From positions 43,526-107,525 of the forward strand of contig PWEL01000013.1 in the NCBI GenBank assembly GCA_003553945.1: a stretch of DNA of 64,000 nt, read 5' to 3'. Both the position numbers and the translations under genes were made by a program. Below, in pieces: positions 36,243 through 49,798 of the stretch; positions within the stretch are counted from its first letter, which is position 1, and each line of letters opens with the position of its first letter. A model generated the notes under the pieces. The model was not told the DNA's origin, did no database searches, and saw only the letters and a program-made list of their open reading frames with translations. Source of the DNA: Mollicutes bacterium (GTDB taxonomy: Bacteria > Bacillota_I > Bacilli_A > Izemoplasmatales > Izemoplasmataceae).

Positions 36243-37316
36243 TCACTCCGCTTCGCATATCAGGGGGATGCGATTGCGTGTTTTCAAGTTCCGGACACTG
36301 ACACAGTTCTCAAGATGCAGCTCAGTGATATCCGGTGTCAGATAACCGTCTTTACATGGCTCCTCCTCCATGAGGTCCGTACTGAGGTATTTCTTGTTGT
36401 CATCCGGGAACAAAGAAACGACAACAGCGTCATTCCCCAAGCTCTCCTGAACCTTAAGAGCGCCGATGAAATTCGCCCCCGATGAAATACCGACACCCTG
36501 ACCGAGCACCGAAGCGATTTTCTGCGCCATGAGGATGGCATCGCCATCATGCACATGCACAACATCATCAAGAGAGTCCAGATCCACTATATCAGGTATG
36601 AATTCATCGGAAATCCCCTGTATTCGGTGACTTCCTACTTTATAGCCTGTTGAAAGGGTCGGGGAACTCGCCGGTTCCAAGGGATGCACTCTGATACCGG
36701 GATGACGTTCCTTCAAGTACTGCCCCACTCCCATCACTGTGCCGCCAGTGCCGACGCCGGCGATGAAGGCGTCCGGAGCCACATCCAACGCTTCAAGTTG
36801 ATAATGAATCTCAGGCCCCGTTGTCAGATAGTGTGCCCGACAGTTCGCATGATTGGAGAACTGACTGGGGAGAAAGCCTTTCGTCGCTTCAGCCTGGGCT
36901 TTTGATTTTTCAATACTTCCTTGGAAACCGCCCTCTTCACGGCTGACAAGCTCGACCTCGGCGCCGTAACTCTCAATCAACCGACGTCGTTCAGCGCTCA
37001 TCCAATCCGGCATGAAAATCTTCACAGGATGGCCGAGGAAACGACCGACCGCCGCAAAGGAGATGCCGGCATTCCCGCTTGAGGCTTCATAGATGCCATC
37101 ACCTGGTGACAACACTTCTTCCTGCATTGCCTTGTAAAGAATGAAGAGCGCCATTCGGTCCTTAACACTACCTGTCAGATTGTAGGATTCATGCTTGATG
37201 TAGACCGAACGCGGATTCCCCTTGTATTTGAATGAAATCTTGCTGAGGGGAGTCGCGCCGATAAGTTCGCAGACATGCTTGAGAGTCTGATACCTTGTTG
37301 CTTCGTGATCTGGCAT
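36243..37316 (-). CDS. cysteine synthase / cystathionine beta-synthase-like PLP enzyme
   Basis: This 357-residue fold-type II PLP enzyme has the lysine in '[11 protein letters not shown]', the substrate loop SSGNAGISF and the phosphate-binding [10 protein letters not shown]. The core matches CysK/CBS; the extra C-terminal ~45 residues ('[20 protein letters not shown]') are unlike standard CysK and carry one cysteine. AAAAAGGAGAATATGGCG precedes the chosen ATG. It is the last gene of the opp operon, so it may use or make a sulfur amino acid linked to the transported peptide. Alternatives are O-phosphoserine or diaminobutyrate-type PLP lyases. Confidence 0.75.
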
Positions 37317-37359
37317 CGCCATATTCTCCTTTTTAAAAGGATTATGCATCATGACAAAT

Positions 37360-37752
37360 TCATGCAAGTTTTCGCGTCAGTGCGGCAATGTTCAAAACGC
37401 TGACAATAGTGATAAAAAGCGTCAACACCGCTGTGGTAATGGCTAGATATGTCGGTTGGACATCATAAGGGAAAATGGCACTCATCAAACGGTAAAGAAG
37501 TAAGGGCAGATACAGGGCCAGGAGGATATAGACGGTTTTCAGATGCAGTCTGATGTCGATTTCACTGGCCTCGAAATTGCGCTTGCTTAGCAGAAACAAC
37601 GCAATCCCGATATGCATCGCCACAAGACAAGGAATGAACAACCAAGCTGGCACGATTTTTAAAAGCGCGATAAAAGGGAACGAGAGGATGTGCGCCAGAA
37701 TGAAAAGACCGATGTCCTTATGGCTTCCCCGCTTAAACGTTTGCTTCTTCAT
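37360..37752 (-). CDS. four-span membrane protein in the opp operon
   Basis: This 130-residue protein has about four membrane helices and a basic N-terminus (MKKQTFKRG). It overlaps the end of the downstream-type ATPase gene by 20 bases and precedes the cysteine-synthase-like gene by about 40 bases. Its ribosome site is weak, so translation is probably coupled. I do not recognise the family. Confidence 0.65.
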
Positions 37753-38776
37753 GAGCTTGCTCTATTCTTTTATCGTAGTCTTCAGGCTTGTCCCCTTCGG
37801 GAAAGCCATTGACATAATGACAGGCTACGTGATGTCCTGAATCAATCTCGACCTGCGGCACCGGAATTGTTCTACACCCTTGCATAGCATATGGACAACG
37901 CTGGTAGAACCTACAGCCCTTGGGAGGGTCGATGGGGCTGGGGATATCCCCTTTCAATACTACCAGTTCCCTCTCTTCTTCCACGTTCGTATCCAGGACC
38001 GCACTCAACAGCGCATGTGTATACGGATGTTTCGCATGATCGAAGATATGCTCACTGCGACCTGATTCCATCACCTTCCCCAGATACATGACCACGATGC
38101 GGTCGCAGATGTTCTTCACCATGGCGAGATTGTGGGATATCAAGACATAGGTTATATCCATGCGTTCCTGGATATCCTGTAAAAGATTCAGAATTTGTGC
38201 GTGCACGGATACGTCGAGCGCAGCGACAGGCTCATCACATACCAGAAAATCCGGATTGAGGATGATCGAGCGCGCAATCGCTATGCGCTGCTGCTGCCCG
38301 CCGGAAAAGTCAGAAGGGTGACGATGCATGTCATCCTTGGAGAGTCCAACCAGTTCCAATAGTTCTCCGACGCGCTCGACCATCTCCTCTTCTGTTGCGG
38401 ATTTGCTGATGATCATTGGTTCGGCGATGACCTGGAACACTGTGAAACGAGGATTCAAGGAGGAATACGGGTCTTGAAAGATCATCTGCATATCCCGTCT
38501 TATACTCTTGAATTCTTTGCGGGAAAGGTCAAAAAGCTTTTTTCCTTTAAAAGTCACCTCGCCGACGGATGGCTTTACGATGCCGAGCATTGTATTGGCA
38601 AGAGTTGATTTTCCACATCCCGATTCACCGACGATGCCAAAGGTTTCACCGGGAAAGACTGAAAAGGAGACATCGCTCACCGCCTGCAGACGCTTTTTCG
38701 GAAGAAACGGAATACCGCCTTTCACAGGGAAATCGACAGTGATATTCTCTAATGTGATTATAGGGTCTTTATTCAT
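37733..38776 (-). CDS. oppF: oligopeptide ABC transporter ATPase OppF/DppF
   Basis: This 347-residue ABC ATPase has Walker A GESGCGKST, signature FSGGQQQRIAIARS and Walker B FLVCDEPVAALD. The C-terminal oligopeptide-transporter extension contains cysteines ('CRFYQRCPYAMQGC'), as in OppF proteins that bind an iron-sulfur cluster. AGAGGAGGCAATGAC precedes ATG, which overlaps the oppD stop (ATGA). Confidence 0.9.
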   Translation of the reverse strand: MNKDPIITLENITVDFPVKGGIPFLPKKRLQAVSDVSFSVFPGETFGIVGESGCGKSTLANTMLGIVKPSVGEVTFKGKKLFDLSRKEFKSIRRDMQMIFQDPYSSLNPRFTVFQVIAEPMIISKSATEEEMVERVGELLELVGLSKDDMHRHPSDFSGGQQQRIAIARSIILNPDFLVCDEPVAALDVSVHAQILNLLQDIQERMDITYVLISHNLAMVKNICDRIVVMYLGKVMESGRSEHIFDHAKHPYTHALLSAVLDTNVEEERELVVLKGDIPSPIDPPKGCRFYQRCPYAMQGCRTIPVPQVEIDSGHHVACHYVNGFPEGDKPEDYDKRIEQAHEEANV

Positions 38777-39768
38777 GTCATTGCCTCCTCTCTTTCCATA
38801 TTCCGCGGATGCCAGCAGCGCACTTCGCTTTCATCATTGATTGCTGAGAGCGGTGGCATTTCCTTTTTGCATTTTTCGGTTGCGTGATTGCATCGTGGAT
38901 GGAAATAGCATCCTTCCGGTTTGCGCATGGGATGTGGAACAGTACCGGGTATTTGTTCAAAACCGCTCTCTTCATCGGATAATTTGGGAACTGAATTAAG
39001 CAGGCCTATACTATAGGGATGATGAGGTTTTTCAAACAATTGCCTGAGGCTTGCTTTCTCCACAATCTTGCCGGAATACATGACATATACTTTATCTGCA
39101 AGGTTGGACACCACGCTCAAGTCGTGAGTTACAAGCAGCAAGGAAACGTCATGACTCTTCTGCAGGTTTCTTAGCTCGTTCAACACCTGGGCCTGAATGG
39201 TCACATCTAAAGATGTGGTCGGTTCATCGGCGAGAATGAGTTTAGGCATGCAGGCGAAGGCCATGGCAAGCAAAACGCGCTGACGCATGCCGCCCGATAA
39301 TTCATGCGGATAATTCTTCGCCCGGGAGGCCGGTTCCGGAACCCCCACCAATTCCAACGCTTTCACTGTCTCCCTGCGCGCTTCTTTTTTGTCCATGTCA
39401 TGATGTCTCAGAAATATCTCAGCTATCTGCTTCCCGCATGTGATAACGGGATTCAAGGCCTCCATAGCATCCTGGAAGATCATAGCCATCTCCTTGCCGC
39501 GGACCTTGCGCATCTCTGATTCCGAAAAATCCTTGATATCCTTTCCACCAAAATACAATTCATCCACGCGCGTCAATGCCGGCGGAGAGTCGATGAGCTT
39601 CATGATCGATCGCGATGTAACACTCTTACCACAGCCCGACTCACCGACGAGCGCGACGCATTCCCCTTTCTCAATGTCGATGTCGACGCCTTCCACAGCC
39701 CGGATGATGCCTCGACCGCTTGGAAAGATGACTTTGAGCTTGCGCATTCTAAGTGTCGGTTCTTCCAT
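38773..39768 (-). CDS. oppD: oligopeptide ABC transporter ATPase OppD/DppD
   Basis: This 331-residue ABC ATPase has GESGCGKSV, LSGGMRQRVLLAMA and LILADEPTTSLD. The C-terminal 'GCYFHPRCNHATEKC' cysteine set is typical of OppD. GGGAGGATGTTTAAT precedes the chosen ATG; a start three codons earlier touches the ribosome site. It pairs with OppF as a heterodimer energising OppBC. Confidence 0.9.
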   Translation of the reverse strand: MEEPTLRMRKLKVIFPSGRGIIRAVEGVDIDIEKGECVALVGESGCGKSVTSRSIMKLIDSPPALTRVDELYFGGKDIKDFSESEMRKVRGKEMAMIFQDAMEALNPVITCGKQIAEIFLRHHDMDKKEARRETVKALELVGVPEPASRAKNYPHELSGGMRQRVLLAMAFACMPKLILADEPTTSLDVTIQAQVLNELRNLQKSHDVSLLLVTHDLSVVSNLADKVYVMYSGKIVEKASLRQLFEKPHHPYSIGLLNSVPKLSDEESGFEQIPGTVPHPMRKPEGCYFHPRCNHATEKCKKEMPPLSAINDESEVRCWHPRNMEREEAMT

Positions 39769-39769
39769 A

Positions 39770-40816
39770 TTAAACATCCTCCCAGGAGTGCGCCGAAGGC
39801 TGCGGCGCTACGGCGCCGGTCTTTTGTCTGTCCTCTTCATCCATTGAATCGAACACTTTCTCAACATAACTGCTATCCAGACTCTTGAAAATCTTGAAAA
39901 TTCCGGCTGACGCCTGCATTTTGGGATTCAGAATTTCTTCAAGCACGATGCCGATGCGCATGAAAGAAAATACTGCGAGGAATATGCCGATACCCGGTGC
40001 AATGATCCACCACCATGCGCCGAAGAGCAATGCGCCTCCTTCTTGGGCTTGAGCCAGCATACGCCCCCAGCTGATAGCGGTCGGGTCGCCGAGGCCAAGA
40101 AAGCTCAGCCCTGCCTCAGCCACCATGATACCGGCTGTGGATAATGCCGTGCTCATGATGAGAAGATGAGAAGTGCCGGGGAGAATATGCTTGATCATTA
40201 TACGCCAGCGGCTTGCTCCGGCTAGTTCAGCGGCACGCACATAGTTGCTGTTCTTGATTACAAGAACGAGGGACCGTATCGTACGTGCAAGACCGCCCCA
40301 GCCCAAAAAGACGAAAATCAGAATGATAATCCAATAATCCCTTCCTAATACATTGGTAAGCACAATGACCAACGGTAGTGAAGGAATCACTAGCAATACA
40401 TCGACGGCACGCATGATGAGGTTGTCGACAAAACCACCTATATACCCCGAAGTAACGCCAAGTATCGCTCCGACCATCGCAATAGAAAGGCCTGAAGTGA
40501 TGCCGACAACCAAGGACACACGGGTTCCATATACCAACATGCTGAATATGTCCTGACCTGTGTTGATAGTTGTCCCGAGCGGATGCTGGAGGCGGGGAGA
40601 CAATCCCTTCTCCGCCCTCTCGGTAATATCATATGGATCGAACGGAGCAATAATGGGGGCGAACAAGGCGACAAGTACCAGGAAGGTGACGACGCTCAAG
40701 CCTATTTTTCCTTTCGGATGCGCCCACAGCCTCTTGATGAAATAAACAAGGCCTTGAATTCGCCGTTTCATTTGTCTTTTGATCCGGATGTGCAATGCAT
40801 CCTGTCTTTTCTTCAT
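39770..40816 (-). CDS. oppC: oligopeptide ABC transporter permease OppC/DppC
   Basis: This 348-residue permease has an N-terminal span, a periplasmic-type domain with 'HPLGTTINTGQDIFSMLVYGTR' and the EAA loop 'RAAELAGASRWRIMIKHILP'. The C-terminus carries an extra soluble tail of about 55 residues (after LEEILNPKM) ending in HSWEDV, longer than in most OppC proteins. GGGTGAGAAGCG precedes ATG. Its start overlaps the oppB stop. Confidence 0.9.
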   Translation of the reverse strand: MKKRQDALHIRIKRQMKRRIQGLVYFIKRLWAHPKGKIGLSVVTFLVLVALFAPIIAPFDPYDITERAEKGLSPRLQHPLGTTINTGQDIFSMLVYGTRVSLVVGITSGLSIAMVGAILGVTSGYIGGFVDNLIMRAVDVLLVIPSLPLVIVLTNVLGRDYWIIILIFVFLGWGGLARTIRSLVLVIKNSNYVRAAELAGASRWRIMIKHILPGTSHLLIMSTALSTAGIMVAEAGLSFLGLGDPTAISWGRMLAQAQEGGALLFGAWWWIIAPGIGIFLAVFSFMRIGIVLEEILNPKMQASAGIFKIFKSLDSSYVEKVFDSMDEEDRQKTGAVAPQPSAHSWEDV

Positions 40817-41811
40817 CGCTTCTCACCCACCGTCACGCGAGGATCGAGCAGGACATAGACGAGGTCCGTGACAAGAATCGCTAGAATCGTGAAAGCGGAT
40901 AACAGCAACATGATTGCCATCATAAGGGGGTAGTCATTCATCTCGTTCGCCTCAAGGAACAATGTCCCCATGCCATGCCAGTTAAAAATCTGTTCAATGA
41001 CAACCTGACCTCCCAGCAAGCCACCGATACTGAAACCGAGGCTTGTTACGATAGGCAGGAGTGAATTCCTCAAGGTGTGTTTATAACGAATGGAACGCTG
41101 TGGAAGTCCTTTGGCCCTCGCGGTAACAATATAGTCCTCATTGGTGACCGCTATCACGGCGTTCCTGGTGGTCTGTGCATAGCCGATGATACTACCGAAG
41201 GACATGCTTATAATCGGCAGCGCCGCATTGCGGGCAAGCATCTGAAGCCCGTCCAGACTGAAGCTGAAATCACCGACAAGGTTAGGATTCGTATACGCGG
41301 GGAATATTTCAAATTCAAAACCCAGATAGAATGACAGAATCAAGGCAATGAAAAAGGCGGGCAATGCCGTCATGATCGTCGACATGTTGAGCAGGGTGGT
41401 ATCCTGCCACCTGCCTCGTTTTGTTGCTGCGAACACCCCGAACAATATGCCACCTATCAGCCCCAGTACCAGTGTGGTCGCTGACAATGTGAGTGTCCAC
41501 GGGAGTCTGTCGGCAATCAGACCTGTCACAGCTGGATTGCCGCTTCTAAAGGACGTGCCGAAATCCCCCTGGGCGACGTCACCTAGATAATTGAGATATT
41601 GTTCCGGGGTGGAGACGTCGAACCCATACTCTTCACGAGTGAGTTGCTTTATGACTTCATACTCGGCATCGCTCATATTCCCCTGCGGAGGATAATATCG
41701 TTCAGCCGGATCGTCCACGCCAATACGCGGAATGAAGAAATTAAGCGTGGTTACGACGAACAATATGAAAACGGAATACAGGATTCTTTTTATGACATAA
41801 CCTTTTTTCAT
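40813..41811 (-). CDS. oppB: oligopeptide ABC transporter permease OppB/DppB
   Basis: This 332-residue permease has a first span at about 8-28 and a 'QGDFGTSFRSGNPAV' extracytoplasmic segment typical of OppB. Later spans surround the EAA loop 'VTARAKGLPQRSIRYKHTLRNSLLP'. AGGTGAATGC precedes the ATG at MKKGYVIK. It follows oppA with 8 bases between. Confidence 0.9.
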   Translation of the reverse strand: MKKGYVIKRILYSVFILFVVTTLNFFIPRIGVDDPAERYYPPQGNMSDAEYEVIKQLTREEYGFDVSTPEQYLNYLGDVAQGDFGTSFRSGNPAVTGLIADRLPWTLTLSATTLVLGLIGGILFGVFAATKRGRWQDTTLLNMSTIMTALPAFFIALILSFYLGFEFEIFPAYTNPNLVGDFSFSLDGLQMLARNAALPIISMSFGSIIGYAQTTRNAVIAVTNEDYIVTARAKGLPQRSIRYKHTLRNSLLPIVTSLGFSIGGLLGGQVVIEQIFNWHGMGTLFLEANEMNDYPLMMAIMLLLSAFTILAILVTDLVYVLLDPRVTVGEKR

Positions 41812-41819
41812 GCATTCAC

Positions 41820-43679
41820 CTACTCTTCCAACCATTCAAGGTTTTCAAGCGTATCGGTGTTCATCAAGTTCGCGCCAATGACCTCTTGATAGCCGATATA
41901 TCGATCGTCACGCGCAACTGAAAGAATACCCCGTCTATAAACAGGAATCTTGTAGTACTGTTCAGCGATGAGAGGCTGAATCTCCTCTATCAATTCATAT
42001 TTCTCGAAAAGATTCAAGGTGCCTCTCATCTCCCGGATGATGGATGTAAGTTCTTCATTCTGTAGCCGTCCGTAGTTAGATGTAGCTCCCAGATTCACAA
42101 AATGCGATTCATACATGATATCGATGTTCTCCAGAGAAAAGATGCATCCCTGCAAAGTCATATCAAAACGGCTGTGATAGAGAAATGTCCGCTCGGGCCT
42201 GGCGCCCTGCATTTCGAAACGGACATCAATGCCTATGTCGGCAAAGAGAACTTGCAGATAGGAGACGGTGTCCTGCTGCCCTGGATGGCCGAGAATTTCA
42301 TACGTTATGCGGTCGCCATCAAGCAAACGATAGCCGCTGTCGTCCTTCTCCGGAACAATGTCGTCCAATATATCGTTCGCCTTCTCTATGCGCTCTTCCC
42401 TGTCCTCAGGGAGTTTCGAAGCGTCGGGATTATAAAAATCCTCCATGTGCTCGTGCATGAGGCCTGGACTCACTGCACCACCGGCCCCCTCTAAAACATT
42501 GTCTATGAGATACTCCTGGTCTATGGCCAGCGCTATCGCCTTGCGGAAATCCCTGTCAGTCAAAAGCTTCCGTTCGGGGGTGAGCTCTGAATCAACGGGA
42601 TTCACATTCAACACCAGTGTTTCAATGGCACTGCTCGGTGACTGGCCGAGAACAATGTTCTCTTCATCTTCAAAGAGCCTTCTGTATTCCGGTGGTACTG
42701 ATTCATCGAGAATGTCAATATGACCTTTCAGGAGTGAATATATACCAACGTTCACCTCCTGATAAAGAATGTAGCGGATTGTCTCGGGCGTATAGAGCGG
42801 TCCGCCATCATCTCCTCTGAGATGGTACTCATCCCTTCTGTCGAGGACAATCTGTTGAGAGCCGCTCTCTTCAGCATCCAGTTCCCAGGGGCCGCTCCCT
42901 ACAGGATTCTTGTACTGTTCCAGCAATTCACCATCAGGGTTGGAGTGATTCAGTGGATTATCCTCACATATGATGGGCTCCCAGATGTGCTCCGGCAAAA
43001 TAAGCATCGATGTGAACAAGCTGGTCACGGCACCAAGTATCTTGTCGACATGCAGATACATCACCGTATCCTTGTCCTCTTCGGGAATATCATAGCCGGC
43101 ATCTTCCGCTCCGCGCTCATAAGTGAATATCCCCTGATTGATCAGCTCTCCCTCATCATACTCATGTTGAAGGTCGGCGGTCCAGGCCAACGCTCCTGCG
43201 TGATTGGAAACCGCATGGTTCGAACCCACATCGAGGGAGAAATAGATATCCTCCACCGTCAACGGCTCACCATCGCTCCAGGTCACATCATCATGCAGTG
43301 TGATTTTAACCGGAATATAATCTTTCTCCGGCGTATCATATATTTCGGCGAGTTGCTCGTAATCATGCTCACCATCCTCTGTAAGCAGAGGGTCGTTATT
43401 GTCATCGACGTAATACCATTCCTTGCCTATAAGCGGGTCGAATTCACCCGTCTCGGTATCATAGCTGAAAAGCGTGTTGTAGATCATGCTGGAAACAGTC
43501 GGCGCCAACCCTTCCCTTGAGAGCCAAGGCATGAAAGAATCGGGAAAGGAGTCTTCACGCCGCCCCACATATAGTGTATTGGTATCATCCGTGCGACGAG
43601 GGTAGTCGCCGCCACCACAGGCGACGAGTGCAAGCGTCAAAAAGGTGAGTACGCACAGAATCATCAGTTTCTTAAACAT
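41820..43679 (-). CDS. oppA: oligopeptide-binding lipoprotein OppA/DppA
   Basis: This 619-residue family-5 solute-binding lipoprotein has a signal ending LVAC (Cys21). Segments such as 'VTWSDGEPLTVEDIYFSLD', 'RDFRKAIALAIDQEYLID' and 'PVGSGPWELD' are the standard OppA/DppA/NikA signatures. AGAGGTGATCAACA precedes ATG. It heads an operon oppA-oppB-oppC-oppD-oppF-membrane protein-CysK-like. The ligand is probably a peptide, but family 5 also binds nickel chelates and sugars. A long hairpin lies in the leader just upstream. Confidence 0.88.
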   Translation of the reverse strand: MFKKLMILCVLTFLTLALVACGGGDYPRRTDDTNTLYVGRREDSFPDSFMPWLSREGLAPTVSSMIYNTLFSYDTETGEFDPLIGKEWYYVDDNNDPLLTEDGEHDYEQLAEIYDTPEKDYIPVKITLHDDVTWSDGEPLTVEDIYFSLDVGSNHAVSNHAGALAWTADLQHEYDEGELINQGIFTYERGAEDAGYDIPEEDKDTVMYLHVDKILGAVTSLFTSMLILPEHIWEPIICEDNPLNHSNPDGELLEQYKNPVGSGPWELDAEESGSQQIVLDRRDEYHLRGDDGGPLYTPETIRYILYQEVNVGIYSLLKGHIDILDESVPPEYRRLFEDEENIVLGQSPSSAIETLVLNVNPVDSELTPERKLLTDRDFRKAIALAIDQEYLIDNVLEGAGGAVSPGLMHEHMEDFYNPDASKLPEDREERIEKANDILDDIVPEKDDSGYRLLDGDRITYEILGHPGQQDTVSYLQVLFADIGIDVRFEMQGARPERTFLYHSRFDMTLQGCIFSLENIDIMYESHFVNLGATSNYGRLQNEELTSIIREMRGTLNLFEKYELIEEIQPLIAEQYYKIPVYRRGILSVARDDRYIGYQEVIGANLMNTDTLENLEWLEE

Positions 43680-43771: not shown

Positions 43772-45100
43772 TCATTTTGTAAGTCCGAAACCGTATTCTT
43801 CATCATCGATGTTGAATGTCATGTTGAGGCCAGTTTCACTGATCATACCAGTGTGAATATCGTTAAGCACCAGTTCATTCCCGTCAATCTCGAAATCGCC
43901 GTCTTCTTCATGGAACACCTCGTCAGCTTCATCAATGATGGCAAGAGCGAAGGTCCCGTCACCTTCAAGTTCAAGTGTCACATGGTGCTCTACATCATCC
44001 AATTCACCTGATGCTTTAAATTCACCTTGTACATGCTCGGAATAGAATGTCTCCTCGCTGCGCATATCGACCTGACTGGAAAGAAGAAACTCACCGCTCA
44101 CTGCGTACTGTGTATAATCGCCACTGAATTCAAGCTCGTCTTCATCTGTCTCATAGGAAATTTCTCCATCTTCGACAGAATAGGTACCCTCTTCATGAAT
44201 TATGTCTTCCTCATCCTCCGCTACATTTTCAGCTACATAGATGTAATCATTGAAATGCCCCATGATGAGCGTTGCAGTAGTATCATACATCACAGTGCCT
44301 TCCATCTCACGATAGGCAGCGGCGTGATATACACCGGCATACTCAGAGGATGTGGTCGTCTCGAGTGTCTGGGTCTCTCTTGAGGCCATGTCCGAAGCTT
44401 GTATGGGAACCTCTATTTCATCCTCTTCGATACTGCCTTCTACAGGATCCTCATCCTCAGGGTCCAGTTCAATGGTTCCGGCGTCCTCATCGATGGTATA
44501 ATCGCCGACCTCTTCATAAGAGTGCGCCGCGCCACCCATGACGAAGAGGCTCCTGAATGAATAGACACCGCCTGTCATAAGTTCAATCGCATAGTGATAC
44601 TCAATCTCGCCACCCATCGCTTCGACGGTGTGGGAACCGCCGTAATGTCCGAGGTACTCTTCATAACGAATCATAATCGCCATCAGGTGATGGGTTACAT
44701 CGGGGTCGATATCACATTCATGTTCATACATGATGTTCGCCTCTCCATAAGGCATGGTGCTGGTAAAACGCAGATTCCCGTCCTCTACAACAAATGTGGA
44801 AGTCACCGGATCCTCATGCGTCCCTTCGTCATAAACCATCATGTACTCTTCATCGTCCGTCTCACGGACTTCTCCGGTATTGCGTGTGTCCTCGAACTCA
44901 CTGTCAGACGCAAAAGTGAATGTGCCGTCTTCCTCAATACGAAGATAGACAATCAAGGGCATGCCCAAATCCTCGATATCGATTTCGTACTCACCGGCAT
45001 GCTCAAAGGGCTCCTCTTCCGGATCTTCACCATTGCAGGCTACAATGCCGAATGACAGGAAGGCCAAGAGCATCAGCACTCCAAAACATTTGAAATTCAT
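43772..45100 (-). CDS. acidic lipoprotein with a domain shared with the gene at 48320
   Basis: This 442-residue lipoprotein (signal ending IVAC, Cys22) is very acidic and appears all-beta. Residues about 35-130 ('GEYEIDIEDLGMPLIVYLRIEEDG'-like start, later NTGEV...YMMVYDE and LRFTSTM) match the C-terminal domain of the lipoprotein at 48320. The rest looks like two or three lipocalin- or META-like beta units ('EGTYSVEDGEISYETDED', 'GDFEIDGNELVLND'). AGAGGAGATTTTG precedes the ATG at MNFKCFG. It has its own promoter with a TGTGTCA repeat. Function is unknown; secretion and repeats suggest ligand binding. Confidence 0.7.
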   Translation of the reverse strand: MNFKCFGVLMLLAFLSFGIVACNGEDPEEEPFEHAGEYEIDIEDLGMPLIVYLRIEEDGTFTFASDSEFEDTRNTGEVRETDDEEYMMVYDEGTHEDPVTSTFVVEDGNLRFTSTMPYGEANIMYEHECDIDPDVTHHLMAIMIRYEEYLGHYGGSHTVEAMGGEIEYHYAIELMTGGVYSFRSLFVMGGAAHSYEEVGDYTIDEDAGTIELDPEDEDPVEGSIEEDEIEVPIQASDMASRETQTLETTTSSEYAGVYHAAAYREMEGTVMYDTTATLIMGHFNDYIYVAENVAEDEEDIIHEEGTYSVEDGEISYETDEDELEFSGDYTQYAVSGEFLLSSQVDMRSEETFYSEHVQGEFKASGELDDVEHHVTLELEGDGTFALAIIDEADEVFHEEDGDFEIDGNELVLNDIHTGMISETGLNMTFNIDDEEYGFGLTK

Positions 45101-45258: not shown

Positions 45259-45287
45259 ATTGTATCGTTGTATGCTCAATGTGTCAA
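45259..45287 (-). promoter_or_regulatory. sigma-A promoter of the 43772 lipoprotein gene
   Basis: On the minus strand TTGACA and TACAAT are exactly 17 bases apart, giving a leader of about 150 bases. The TGTGTCA repeat overlaps the -35 box. In the 360-base gap up to 45460 the only other clear elements are the divergent promoter and its motif. Confidence 0.7.
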
Positions 45288-45296
45288 TGTGTCATA
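45280..45296 (-). repeat. TGTGTCA tandem operator-like motif (site a)
   Basis: TGTGTCAATGTGTCATA on the plus strand consists of two TGTGTCA units 8 bases apart, overlapping the -35 box of the 43772 gene. Related sites lie at 45419, 49663 and 49786. Confidence 0.6.
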
Positions 45297-45390
45297 TACA
45301 CGCTTTTTTGTTTTCCCTCCGAACAGCATAGTTTTTTAAGTGAAATTCATGTTTAAAAGCTACCTAATGACTACAACTGCGGGATTTCAT

Positions 45391-45419
45391 TTGACCCTGG
45401 CATAATGATGTGATAAAAT
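45391..45419 (+). promoter_or_regulatory. sigma-A promoter of the 45461 gene
   Basis: TTGACC and TAAAAT are 17 bases apart, about 42 bases before the ATG. Confidence 0.65.
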
Positions 45420-45433
45420 GACAGTGTGTCATA
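45419..45433 (+). repeat. TGACA-N3-TGTCA operator-like motif (site b)
   Basis: TGACAGTGTGTCATA sits just after the -10 box, over the expected transcription start of the 45461 gene. That position fits repression. Confidence 0.6.
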
Positions 45434-45460
45434 AAAAGAGAACCCTGGGAGGATGAAATC

Positions 45461-46114
45461 ATGAGAACCGCTGAAGCTTTTTTTAATTGGGCATTCAAGA
45501 CTCGAGCGAACACAGTCATGAAACTTCGCGAAGGCGAAGATATGACAAAAGAGAAAATTTTCCTGAGTTTCTGTTCACACACTCCGGCATTTGTGTCACA
45601 TGGTCCCGAGGGGCTCAACGCTTCAGTCAAGGGTGTCGGATTTTTACCCAAGGATGAATATCTTGAAGAGACACTAGAGGCCTATCTTGAGCATATCGAT
45701 AGCTATGACGGCGATGATAAGGCCTACAGCAAGCGTGGCCTTGAAATCCTAACCAAGTACATGTACGACCCCGATGTACGCCATCGTATTGATTTCACCA
45801 AGATGGGGAGCCTTGAAATGGCCAAGAAGCACAGCTGGGCCAACTACAAGGAAAACCGGGAAGCCACGTTAATCTTCTATCAACCACCGATGGTCTCCTA
45901 CGAGGTTCGCGGTAAAATCGAGATCTACGACGAAAAAGAATCAAAAAAGCAGGAACTCTACCAGCAATTCATCAATGCGCAGCACGATGTCTATCATCGC
46001 CCGAACAAAGCACGCTGGAAGGAAAACCCCGCCTATATATTCCGGATCGAGGAAATATACGATAACTCCGCCTCTAAAGACGGATTCGGCACAAAACTCG
46101 AGTTCCCCTACTGA
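45461..46114 (+). CDS. uncharacterised protein, possibly FMN-binding split barrel
   Basis: This 217-residue soluble protein has a central part 'REATLIFYQPPMVSYEVRGKIEIYD' followed by 'AQHDVYHRPNKARWKENPAYIFRIEEIYDNS'. This resembles pyridoxamine-5'-phosphate-oxidase-like split-barrel flavoproteins, a weak visual match only. The N-terminus is helical and has two cysteines apart from each other's usual metal spacing. GGGAGGATGAAATC precedes the ATG. It is divergent from the 43772 lipoprotein gene, and both promoters carry TGTCA-type motifs, so they may be co-regulated. Confidence 0.5.
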   Translation: MRTAEAFFNWAFKTRANTVMKLREGEDMTKEKIFLSFCSHTPAFVSHGPEGLNASVKGVGFLPKDEYLEETLEAYLEHIDSYDGDDKAYSKRGLEILTKYMYDPDVRHRIDFTKMGSLEMAKKHSWANYKENREATLIFYQPPMVSYEVRGKIEIYDEKESKKQELYQQFINAQHDVYHRPNKARWKENPAYIFRIEEIYDNSASKDGFGTKLEFPY

Positions 46115-46155
46115 TTGATACCAACCGGTCGGTTGTCCTTGCCCCCCTTCCCCTT

Positions 46156-46180
46156 GCCCGCATGCATGCGGGCTTTTTTT
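46156..46180 (+). terminator. intrinsic terminator after the 45461 gene
   Basis: The stem GCCCGCATG / CATGCGGGC is followed by TTTTTTT. Confidence 0.88.
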
Positions 46181-46195
46181 CATGCGGACACCATA

Positions 46196-46229
46196 ACAAA
46201 AGATCTCCCGCGCAGCTGCGCGGGAGATC
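46196..46229 (-). terminator. terminator of the collagen-like lipoprotein gene
   Basis: The perfect 28-base palindrome GATCTCCCGCGCAG / CTGCGCGGGAGATC is followed on the minus strand by TTTTGTTA. Confidence 0.8.
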
Positions 46230-46260
46230 AGGGCCTTTCACAAACTATAATGCTTGTTGA

Positions 46261-48249
46261 TCAAGGCATGAACGCCACGTCGATCTCCTCAGGGGATGTG
46301 TAGACAAGCTGAGGACCGTCGTGCCAGCCGAGAATCATACCGTTGACCATCACATTCTGTCCTTCCTCGAAGGAAAGCAGATGATCTTTCGCCCCTTCGT
46401 CGTCAAGGCTGGCATCATAACGCACTTCGACGAGTTCATCGATATATGCCATGCCTTCTAGCCATTGAAGTGTCAGAATCACATTGCCCTCATCATCCTC
46501 TTCAACACTGTCGACGCTCGGCATGAACATATCGACTCGATGTCCCTGGAAGGCGATCATTTCGTCTTCATCGGTAATATCGGCCTCCTGGATGCTCTTG
46601 ACTGGAGGAAGATCAAAGTTTGATTCAATGACTGAGATATCATCGAGGGAATCGACTTGACGGAGACCTTCATATTCCGCTCTCTGTCCTTCGACGACAA
46701 TGAAATCACCGACATTCAGATCATTGAAATAATCCTCGTCATCATCAACAACATTAATAGCGCCGGTCGCGTCCTCGATATAAAAGGTGCGGTCGTCAAC
46801 AATCGCTGTGACTATACCGTTGACTTCAACTGCTTCCTCATCGTCTGCGGCGATCGCCTCCGCGATAGTCATATCGGCTTCCCCGACAGCAATCGATGCA
46901 GTATGGACCGTGTCATCGATGACTTCTTCAGTTTCTGCGTCGATGAGTTTCATCTCAATCTCATAGGCCCCCATGGCACTGAAGTTCACTGTCCATTCGG
47001 TCATCTCTGAATAGTCGGTGTCAAGGTCAAAACCATCGGAAGGACCCCAGTAGCCTTCATCCGTGAACGAGTATGTCTCACCTTCACTATCCTCGGCGGT
47101 GAAAGTGACCTCTCCGCCCTCGGGCGCACTGGATTCAAATCTGAACCTGACATTCTCGCGGCCCTTGTAGCCTTCCTCATCCGTAACCAAGGCCACATCG
47201 ACCGCAGTGTCCTCGTCGACATTGATAGTCACAGGGATTTCTGCATCGAACCCATAGACTGAATAATACGGAATGACATCGACTGTAACGGTCTCTTCGA
47301 TTCCGGCGATCACTTCTTCGGTATCCGCATCTATCAGCGACATGGTGATATCGAATTCACCGGCTCCGGAGAACTCAAGGGTCCACTCGGTCGTCTCATC
47401 ATAATCGGCAGGTAGTTCAAAGCCTTCCGAGGGCCCCCAGTACCCATCATTCGTGAAAGTATGCGTTTCTCCCTCGCTGTCGGTCGCGGAGTAATCGACC
47501 TCGAGACCTGACATCATCGGCACTGACGTCTCGATTCTGAACCGCACATCATCATAGCCTTCCGGGCCTTCAAGATCAGTAGCGAACGTCACATCGAAAT
47601 CAATCGCTTCGCCAGCCACCACAGGATCCTCCATGTCCACATCGAACGTATAGGTCGAATGGTTCACGACATCCTCGACATAGAGCGTGGTGTCCTCCAT
47701 GACCACCTCTTCATCCGCAGGCTCTTCGTACGCTTCATCAAGATACCAGTCCTCTTCATAAGGAGACTCCCCGAGTGTTTCACCCTTCATGAAGGTGTTT
47801 GGTTTCTCGGTAAGATCCGCAAAGACGACGGTCACTTCCACTGAGAGGGTCCCCTGGGCCACTTCCTTGATCCAGGTCGCTTCATCCTCATCGTATCCGG
47901 GATAGTGTTCAAGATAGGTTTCGAACGCACTCAATCCGTCTTCGCCATCTTCACCGTCCGCTCCATCTTCGCCATCTTCGCCGGCTGGGCCTTGCGGACC
48001 TTCTTCACCATCTTCACCGTCCGCTCCGTCTTCGCCATCTTCGCCGTCTTCACCGTCTTCACCAGCAGGGCCTTCGAGTTCTTCGAGCGCGATGAGCTGT
48101 GTCCATTCATCCTCGCCCTCATAACGCCATTCGATGTGCTCATCCGTTGTCTGGAATTCGATCTCGCGCTCTTCAGGCTCACATCCCGCCATCAGGACGA
48201 ACATGAAGACAAACGTCGCGACAATCACTGTTCTTTTAACCATAGCCAT
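46261..48249 (-). CDS. lipoprotein with collagen-like segment, duplicated beta domains and OB-like domain
   Basis: This 662-residue lipoprotein has a signal ending MAGC (Cys23). A collagen-like run of 14 Gly-X-Y triplets, rich in GED and GAD (about 60-105), follows. Next comes a region starting 'LSVEVTVVFADLTEKPNTF' (InlB-repeat-like), then two homologous domains of about 120 residues that share 'FTNDGYWGPSEGFELPADY' / 'FTDEGYWGPSDGFDLDTDY'. The last ~190 residues look like an OB-fold of the YhcR/DUF5689 type ('VEVNGIVTAIVDDRTFYIEDATGAI'). It follows the 48320 gene closely and is probably co-transcribed. A small hairpin separates ribosome site and ATG. It may be an adhesin or surface-glycan binder; function unknown. 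Confidence 0.7.
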   Translation of the reverse strand: MAMVKRTVIVATFVFMFVLMAGCEPEEREIEFQTTDEHIEWRYEGEDEWTQLIALEELEGPAGEDGEDGEDGEDGADGEDGEEGPQGPAGEDGEDGADGEDGEDGLSAFETYLEHYPGYDEDEATWIKEVAQGTLSVEVTVVFADLTEKPNTFMKGETLGESPYEEDWYLDEAYEEPADEEVVMEDTTLYVEDVVNHSTYTFDVDMEDPVVAGEAIDFDVTFATDLEGPEGYDDVRFRIETSVPMMSGLEVDYSATDSEGETHTFTNDGYWGPSEGFELPADYDETTEWTLEFSGAGEFDITMSLIDADTEEVIAGIEETVTVDVIPYYSVYGFDAEIPVTINVDEDTAVDVALVTDEEGYKGRENVRFRFESSAPEGGEVTFTAEDSEGETYSFTDEGYWGPSDGFDLDTDYSEMTEWTVNFSAMGAYEIEMKLIDAETEEVIDDTVHTASIAVGEADMTIAEAIAADDEEAVEVNGIVTAIVDDRTFYIEDATGAINVVDDDEDYFNDLNVGDFIVVEGQRAEYEGLRQVDSLDDISVIESNFDLPPVKSIQEADITDEDEMIAFQGHRVDMFMPSVDSVEEDDEGNVILTLQWLEGMAYIDELVEVRYDASLDDEGAKDHLLSFEEGQNVMVNGMILGWHDGPQLVYTSPEEIDVAFMP

Positions 48250-48282
48250 AATGTTCGGTGCCTAAGCACCTCGATCCTCCTT
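48249..48282 (-). promoter_or_regulatory. ribosome site separated from ATG by a hairpin
   Basis: AAGGAGGA lies 25 bases before the first ATG, too far for normal initiation. The spacer holds GGTGC-TTAG-GCACC. If that 14-base hairpin forms, the effective spacing drops to about 11 bases. Confidence 0.5.
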
Positions 48283-48319
48283 TTTTATTTTTTCCTATCC
48301 GTCGGATAGGTGGATAACG

Positions 48320-49543
48320 CTACGAATCTTCAACAGGGACCGCCTTGAGATATCCCTCTTCATGTTCATAAGGAAGATCAAAAGTTTCCAGATATCTCAA
48401 ATCGGAAGTGAATACCAGTGTCCCTTCAGACAGTACAAAAGTCGTGTCCTTGTCACGCTCATCATAAACCATCCTGTACGCTTCGTCGCCATCCTCGATG
48501 ACTTCTCCGGTGTTGACCACATCGCTGCACGCTTCATCCCTTGCGAGCGTGAACTGAGAGTTCGAATCGATATTCAGATATATCACTATTGCCATGCCTG
48601 CATCCTCCAGATCTATCGCAAACGCCCCTTCATAGGGAAGCACTTCCTCCCATCTTGCATGCAGGGTGATATCTTCAGCCGGCATCGTGTCATAATCGAA
48701 GGGGGTTTCATACGCCGCGTCCATATACCATCCAGCGAATTCGTGGCATTCCTTTTCAGGCGCTTCGGGAAGAGTGATGGATGCTTCAAAGTCAACCTCG
48801 AGCGCATCTATCCTTGTCCCGCCGTGGGTATTGAAATCTATTGAATAGGACTCGAGCGCCCATTTCGCGTAAAGCGTGACATCCTCATCCGGCATGACAT
48901 CGAAAGTGAAAGGCTCCTCAAAGGTCTCGTCAGTGTACCATCCCTCGAAGGAATGCCCTTCCTTGCTCGGGGCTTCAGGCGGTTCCAGTTCCTCTCCGTA
49001 ATCAGCGACAACGTCCTCGACCTCGCTCCCGCCATAGGTTTCAAAATGAAGGACATACCCTATGGCCTCCCATCTTGCATGCAGGGTTATGTCTTCGCCG
49101 GGCATCGTCGAGAAAACGAAAGGCGTCTCATAGGATTCGTCCTCGTACCATCCTTCGAACTGATAGCCTTCACGCGTAGGTTCACCGGGCGGGTCGATCT
49201 CCGATTCATAATGCGTTTCGATGGTCTCTACTTCGCTGCCGCTGTGGGTCTTGAAAACAATACAATATGTCACAGGCTCGAAGCCTGCATGAACTTCCAC
49301 ATCCTCTGTAACGGCTTCGTTGAAATCGAAGGTCTCTATGGCATCGGGGCAGGTGAACCATCCCGTGAAGTCATGATGGTCCCGTTCAGGACCGGATATG
49401 GCCTCGACATACTCCCCGTCACCGACCTCGATCGTTTCAAGAACTTCATCGCCATCATAGAACGTCACCTCGTAGGTCGTCTCTTCACATGCTGAAAGCA
49501 GCGCTGAACTTACAACCACAACAATAATCGCTAACCACTTCAT
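48320..49543 (-). CDS. InlB-repeat lipoprotein with the shared C-terminal domain
   Basis: This 407-residue lipoprotein has a signal ending LSAC (Cys19). Four InlB B-type (Flg_new/Listeria-Bacteroides) repeats follow, each with an FxGWY core: HDFTGWFT, YQFEGWYED, HSFEGWYTD, HEFAGWYMD; three then close with 'ITLHARW'-like strands. The C-terminal ~95 residues ('GAFAIDLEDAGMAIVIYLNI', NTGEV, YRMVYDE, LVFTSDL) match the N-terminal domain of the 43772 lipoprotein. CTGAGGAGTGAGGAT precedes the ATG at MKWLAII; the longer ORF start is not used. A terminator-like hairpin lies in the leader. It is a likely surface adhesin or binding protein. Confidence 0.75.
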   Translation of the reverse strand: MKWLAIIVVVVSSALLSACEETTYEVTFYDGDEVLETIEVGDGEYVEAISGPERDHHDFTGWFTCPDAIETFDFNEAVTEDVEVHAGFEPVTYCIVFKTHSGSEVETIETHYESEIDPPGEPTREGYQFEGWYEDESYETPFVFSTMPGEDITLHARWEAIGYVLHFETYGGSEVEDVVADYGEELEPPEAPSKEGHSFEGWYTDETFEEPFTFDVMPDEDVTLYAKWALESYSIDFNTHGGTRIDALEVDFEASITLPEAPEKECHEFAGWYMDAAYETPFDYDTMPAEDITLHARWEEVLPYEGAFAIDLEDAGMAIVIYLNIDSNSQFTLARDEACSDVVNTGEVIEDGDEAYRMVYDERDKDTTFVLSEGTLVFTSDLRYLETFDLPYEHEEGYLKAVPVEDS

Positions 49544-49565
49544 ATCCTCACTCCTCAGGACAAAT

Positions 49566-49595
49566 GAAAAAAAGCATGCTAAAGACTGCATGCTT
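49566..49595 (-). terminator. leader terminator (possible attenuator) before the 48320 gene
   Basis: On the minus strand AAGCATGC-AGTCTTTA-GCATGCTT is followed by seven Ts, ending only about 25 bases before the ATG and roughly 85-115 bases after the promoter. It must be read through for the lipoprotein genes to be expressed. Confidence 0.75.
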
Positions 49596-49662
49596 GACTG
49601 AATGGTGTCATCAAAAGACTCAGGCGGGAAATGTAATGATACATACCAACACCCCCGTTTTG

Positions 49663-49679
49663 TATGACACAATGACACA
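49663..49679 (-). repeat. TGTGTCA tandem operator-like motif (site c)
   Basis: On the minus strand TGTGTCATTGTGTCATA has two TGTGTCA units 8 bases apart, nearly identical to site a. It lies just downstream of the -10 box of the 48320 gene. Confidence 0.6.
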
Positions 49680-49689
49680 TCGTAATTAT

Positions 49690-49717
49690 ATTATAAACAA
49701 TCAACGGAAAAAATCAA
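49690..49717 (-). promoter_or_regulatory. promoter of the 48320-46261 lipoprotein operon
   Basis: TTGATT and TATAAT are 16 bases apart on the minus strand, with a second TATAAT 5 bases further on. Within the 331-base gap 49544-49874 the features seen are this promoter, sites c and d, the leader terminator and the recD2 terminator. Confidence 0.5.
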
Positions 49718-49785
49718 ACATTTAAATGAATAAATGACGGGAAAATTAATGGCAGGCACAAAAAAAGGCGAAAGTAAAAGAGATA

Positions 49786-49798
49786 TGACATTTTGTCA
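49786..49798. repeat. TGACA-N3-TGTCA motif (site d)
   Basis: TGACATTTTGTCA is a perfect palindrome of the same form as site b. On the minus strand it contains TTGACA with TACTTT 17 bases further, a possible second, weaker promoter toward the 48320 gene. Confidence 0.4.

Follow-up and report, generated by a model that had tools for sequence, protein, structure and literature searches.

TGACA-N3-TGTCA sites at lipoprotein and Opp-importer promoters of a Mollicutes bacterium as probable operators of an HrtR-like TetR repressor

The window analysed here, i.e. the whole 64,000-nucleotide stretch of DNA from a Mollicutes bacterium, harbors a lipoprotein-Opp importer cluster, a divergently oriented gene for a split-barrel protein, and a further lipoprotein operon:

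36243-37367, minus strand: PALP (cysteine-synthase-like) enzyme, encoded last in the cluster
37733-41835, minus strand: Opp-type importer, two permeases (BPD_transp_1) and two ATPases (ABC_tran + oligo_HPY)
41820-43679, minus strand: SBP_bac_5 solute-binding lipoprotein of the Opp-type ABC importer
43772-45100, minus strand: acidic lipoprotein (weak NlpE-like match) that leads the lipoprotein-Opp cluster
45461-46114, plus strand: PNPOx-like split-barrel protein of 217 aa, divergent from the lipoprotein-Opp cluster
46261-48249, minus strand: lipoprotein encoded second in the 48320 operon, with a collagen-like stretch
48320-49543, minus strand: lipoprotein with List_Bact repeats, in a lineage-specific operon

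The 43772 lipoprotein has a homolog at the same place in three related genomes, two of the same genus (G001 and G002) and one of another genus (G017). The C-terminal domain of the 48320 lipoprotein is 45% identical to the 43772 lipoprotein across 101 residues, and this common domain fits shared control of the two genes without proving it. The collagen-like stretch of the 46261 lipoprotein consists of GEDGEDGADGEDG and is accompanied by a weak BOF/OB-fold-like region.

The 217-aa protein is predicted to adopt a PNPOx-like split-barrel fold (pLDDT 88). Among solved structures, the best fold matches were FMN- or F420-binding members, together with the haem-binding HupZ, PaiB, and NohD; the whole-chain TM-scores of these matches were low (~0.4), and therefore only the fold is claimed for this protein. 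A sequence search of the PDB gave no match for it. Its sequence identity is 61-76% between members from Clostridia, Bipolaricaulota, and the order to which the present genome belongs (loci L156-L190), and in most of the loci read its gene stands beside lipoprotein, SBP_bac_5, and Opp genes. A gene of the SDH_alpha type (serine dehydratase or cysteine desulfidase family) adjoins this module at the clostridial locus L169, 2.9-1.5 kb upstream of the split-barrel gene, and in genome G058 (L036, 10945-12210).

Between 45 and 50 kb of the window, the three best promoter-like matches, all of the sigma-70 type, precede the three transcription units, albeit such matches are not in excess there (7, compared with 5.9 in shuffled sequence). 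Four TGTCA-containing sites accompany these promoters:

45287-45259, minus strand: promoter of the lipoprotein (43772) operon, TTGACA-17-TACAAT, 11/12 consensus matches
45280-45296, plus strand: site A, putative variant operator TGTGTCAATGTGTCATA, TGTCA-ATG-TGTCA
45391-45419, plus strand: promoter of 45461, TTGACC-17-TAAAAT
45419-45431, plus strand: site C, perfect palindrome TGACAGTGTGTCA, TGACA-GTG-TGTCA
49663-49679, minus strand: site B, putative variant operator TGTGTCATTGTGTCATA, TGTCA-TTG-TGTCA
49717-49690, minus strand: promoter of the 48320 operon, TTGATT-16-TATAAT
49786-49798, plus strand: site D, perfect palindrome TGACATTTTGTCA

The original prediction had described TGTGTCA-N-TGTGTCATA at the -35 of the 43772 gene and past the -10 of the 48320 operon, as well as TGACA-N3-TGTCA at the start point of the 45461 gene and upstream of the 48320 promoter, and had placed all four on promoters. 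The sites are indeed present at these places, each at a promoter or in intergenic DNA. On the minus strand, site A encloses the -35 element TTGACA of the 43772 operon; site B lies directly past the -10 of the 48320 operon promoter. Relative to their genes, A and B are oriented in opposite directions. The first base of site C is the last base of the 45461 -10, which puts this palindrome at the start point, and site D is located ~70 bp upstream of the 48320 promoter. An Rfam scan found no RNA element at the promoters and gave one sub-threshold hit elsewhere. A terminator-like hairpin (AAGCATGC-N8-GCATGCTT, followed by Ts; 49572-49595, minus strand) stands between the promoter of site B and the start codon of 48320 (49543), where it is a possible attenuator.

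The same palindrome occurs 30 bp upstream of a regulator gene on another contig (C4) of the genome bin that contains the window (G000; 1.17 Mb, 64% complete):

C4:62410-63021: TetR1, an HrtR-like TetR protein of 204 aa, encoded before two MsbA-like ABC exporter genes

TetR1 carries a TetR_N domain (PF00440) at its N terminus (E=5.8e-10; 39.2 bits against a cut-off of 24), and its DNA-binding domain matches that of HrtR over residues 1-82 (E=1.8e-22). TGACA-N3-TGTCA, with 0-1 mismatch, was found upstream of the ATG in all 27 located TetR1 orthologs; the nearest copy lies 27-39 bp before the ATG, and several orthologs have a second copy ~26-28 bp further up. Residues R46 and Y50 are invariant in the same 27 proteins. 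The motif is likely to be the autoregulatory operator of an HrtR-like TetR repressor. N3 sites likewise precede the genes of similar TetR proteins carried by Enterococcus and Weissella plasmids.

A matrix trained on the TetR1-ortholog promoters of 26 other genomes of the family, none of them G000, was used to scan the 64-kb window. Sites C, D, A, and B took the first four ranks with scores of 21.97, 18.52, 18.15, and 16.45, respectively, followed in fifth rank by a weaker match that overlaps site B (49671-49687; 14.04), while the next unrelated site scored 10.25. The matrix result is an independent prediction of the four sites that had been noted. The sites had been attributed to one undescribed regulator. 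That they probably serve one regulator is supported, as a matrix built from foreign genomes picks these same four; "undescribed" is not supported, given that the likely operator of an HrtR-like TetR is present in 27/27 orthologs. The probable regulator is of a known kind, an HrtR-like TetR, while the particular protein is undescribed. Searches of the literature on TetR operators of the TGACA/TGTCA type gave nothing informative.

The operator of HrtR, ATGACACAGTGTCAT, has the same TGACA-N3-TGTCA form as the putative operator at TetR1, and this likeness is taken as a lead. HrtR of Lactococcus lactis, a haem sensor of the TetR family (PDB 3vok, 3vox, 3vp5), contacts a 15-nt palindrome via R46 and Y50 (PMC12839281), and TetR1 shares with it these two residues, the match of the DNA-binding domain, a short palindromic operator, and a (predicted) autoregulated ABC-exporter operon. 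In contrast, the haem ligand H72 of HrtR is replaced by glutamate in TetR1 of G000, and residue 72 is E in 21/27 and H in 3/27 orthologs; furthermore, the HrtR exporter is HrtBA, whereas the genes downstream of TetR1 encode a pair of MsbA-like half-transporters. Since the haem ligand is absent and the exporter is of another type, TetR1 is not HrtR. As to H149, the other haem ligand of HrtR, a histidine with this number does occur in TetR1 of G000, but it lies outside the profile match (residues 1-82), so that the two positions cannot be equated. The proposed regulon of TetR1 would also differ from that of HrtR by reaching distant operons, including that of an importer. FhtR of Enterococcus faecalis, another TetR haem sensor, represses a haem exporter through two palindromes in one promoter (PMC7858072); its operators, TTATCAATCGATAA and TTATCGATTGATAA, are unrelated to the motif described here, and it was reported to have no significant identity to HrtR.

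Comparison with relatives placed two of the window's sites in a conserved setting. The divergent region between the lipoprotein operon and the split-barrel gene contains two perfect palindromes in G001, G002, and G017, 156 bp apart in all three. One of them overlaps the -35 of the lipoprotein operon (TTGACA-17-TATAAT), and its partner borders on the -10 of the split-barrel gene. In an alignment, site A matches up with TGACAAAGTGTCA, the perfect palindrome of the corresponding promoter in the three genomes, and site C is conserved in register with the -10. A and C are the counterparts of the relatives' two palindromes; at site A, one half has decayed on one side, and a new half-site is located 8 bp away on the other. 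DNA looping between the paired sites was considered and set aside, as the 156-bp spacing of the relatives compares with ~137 and 121 bp in the window, and nothing else spoke in its favour. In five genomes of the genus, the region downstream of recD2 lacks the 48320-46261 operon; because this operon is lineage-specific, conservation offers no support for sites B and D, which are provisionally assigned by their match to the motif.

The motif accompanies further genes in some relatives. In G058, the cluster genes form one operon, and a palindrome lies between this operon and the divergent SDH_alpha gene, while G017 has another SDH_alpha gene with a palindrome. The PALP gene lies within the cluster in G022 as well; in G001 and G002 its orthologs (62% identical) are outside the cluster and have their own palindrome, and no site was found at the detached PALP gene of G058. 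Since the clostridial Opp/split-barrel loci are devoid of the motif, it belongs to this order rather than to the gene module.

Taken as a class, the four sites are very probably operators of an HrtR-like TetR. That the repressor acting on them is TetR1 itself, encoded at C4:62410-63021, is our favored reading, and we hold it with fair though lesser confidence. A different regulator that reads the same half-site seems rather unlikely; candidates would be a MarR-type regulator that controls an exporter operon, or an HrtR-like TetR paralog missing from the bin. At 64% completeness, the bin may lack a further HrtR-like TetR; relatives encode several HrtR-like TetRs with TGACA half-sites, and because this half-site is common to all members of the group, targets of paralogs could overlap. 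The more complete relatives argue against such a paralog, as G017 (90% complete) and G001 (96% complete) retain the Opp sites and yet have N3 sites at TetR1 only; of the TetR_N proteins that G000, G001, G002, and G017 yielded, TetR1 alone is accompanied by N3 sites, and those at the second HrtR-like TetR of G001 are of the N4 type. As for the MarR type, the palindrome is present at some MarR-ABC exporter operons and before MarR-type genes of a few relatives, an arrangement reminiscent of PefR of Streptococcus agalactiae, a MarR-family repressor encoded beside ABC exporter genes. The PefR operator, TAAAATAGTTCTCACGATAACTA (PMC2858704), is unrelated to TGACA-N3-TGTCA. In G000, a search for a MarR gene ahead of the exporter genes at C4:53-55 kb revealed none. 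A search of the relatives for a local regulator adjoining the Opp cluster found none.

At paralogous HrtR-like TetRs located before other ABC exporters, the TGACA half-sites recur 4 bp apart (e.g. TGACACATGTGTCA), as observed at L191, L192, and L197-L200 (G001, G022, G028, G006, G012, and G018) and at L233 on a Cytobacillus plasmid. The TetR1 spacer is 3 bp, and the paralogs may be kept apart by spacer length.

The TetR1 reading assumes that all four sites are read by one protein. Two regulators, one for the palindromes C and D and another for tandem TGTGTCA repeats at A and B, would accommodate the reading of A and B as 8-bp direct repeats found nowhere else in the bin, as well as their opposite orientations relative to their genes. 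A and B are, however, the palindrome with one base of the left half-site changed (TGTCA for TGACA), and being one base away from it they do not constitute a second motif; the four sites are one motif. Two separate motifs were thus dropped, as A and B are ranked third and fourth by the palindrome matrix and A occupies the place of the relatives' perfect palindrome. In addition, arrays of the form TGACA-N3-TGACA-N3-TGTCA precede another HrtR-like TetR gene (L201), so that two regulators appear very unlikely.

Abundance was compared with chance at three scales. In the window, TGACANNNTGTCA was observed twice against 0.10 expected, and the tandem with up to 3 mismatches twice against 0.16 expected, with 0/100 shuffles reaching two in either case. 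The 1.17-Mb bin contains five copies of the palindrome and none of its reversed control, while the tandem is represented by A and B only, plus one match with 3 mismatches. Across 61 genomes of the order, 118 palindromes compare with 39 control matches (p ~1e-10), the control thus reaching a third of the palindrome count. All five palindromes of the bin are intergenic, namely C, D, one in the TetR gene promoter (C4:62380), one in that of a 5'-nucleotidase-like lipoprotein (C12:59988), and one in a gap that separates an XRE gene from the next gene (C35:15644). A lack of enrichment at promoters elsewhere would have spoken against the original prediction, and this result does not refute it. The motif is also found at many other genes, and some of these copies are probably due to chance. 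For the four sites themselves, coincidence is exceedingly improbable: TGACA belongs to the -35 consensus TTGACA and is expected in promoters of AT-rich gaps, and site A does enclose its promoter's -35, but the named promoters do not have their -35 elements at B, C, or D, the double half-site is far commoner than in shuffles and also commoner than the reversed control, and the sites are kept at the same promoters in other genomes.

Two further settings of the palindrome recur across genomes. Within the genus, G000 (L041, 7645-7657) and G004 (L075, 1501-1513) both have it in the gap behind an XRE-type regulator gene, the two regulators being similar, and ahead of a membrane-protein gene. In two genera, TGACA-N3-TGTCA lies immediately upstream of MATE-type efflux genes (L087 in G005 and L115 in G006).

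With TetR1 as the candidate repressor, a simple mechanism can be proposed. Dimeric TetR1 would repress its own operon via TGACAATATGTCA and, by covering the -35 at site A, the lipoprotein-Opp-PALP cluster. Bound at the start point (site C), it would repress the divergent split-barrel gene, and through sites B and D the lineage-specific lipoprotein operon. At each of these promoters the bound dimer would block RNA polymerase, and a ligand would release TetR1 from the DNA. The combination of a predicted split-barrel fold with an HrtR-like repressor invites the hypothesis of a tetrapyrrole ligand, while the PALP and SDH_alpha enzymes also fit amino-acid or sulphur metabolism. A broader scenario, which we regard as distinctly doubtful, would have an HrtR-like repressor turned into a multi-locus regulator that links efflux with uptake in response to a tetrapyrrole or to a sulphur-containing amino acid or peptide. 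The efflux side would comprise its own ABC exporters and, in relatives, MATE pumps; the uptake side would comprise the Opp-type importer, the lipoproteins, and the split-barrel enzyme with the fold of HupZ, PaiB, and NohD, joined by the amino-acid enzymes PALP here and SDH_alpha in relatives.

As judged from these sequence comparisons, a peptide-type uptake system and its accompanying lipoproteins are probably tied to a repressor whose gene lies in another part of the genome. An uncultured lineage thereby gains a named candidate repressor, a searchable operator, and a list of targets that can be tested with one purified protein. The findings further suggest that control of an importer/lipoprotein module is linked, in a conserved manner, to that of a self-regulated exporter operon.
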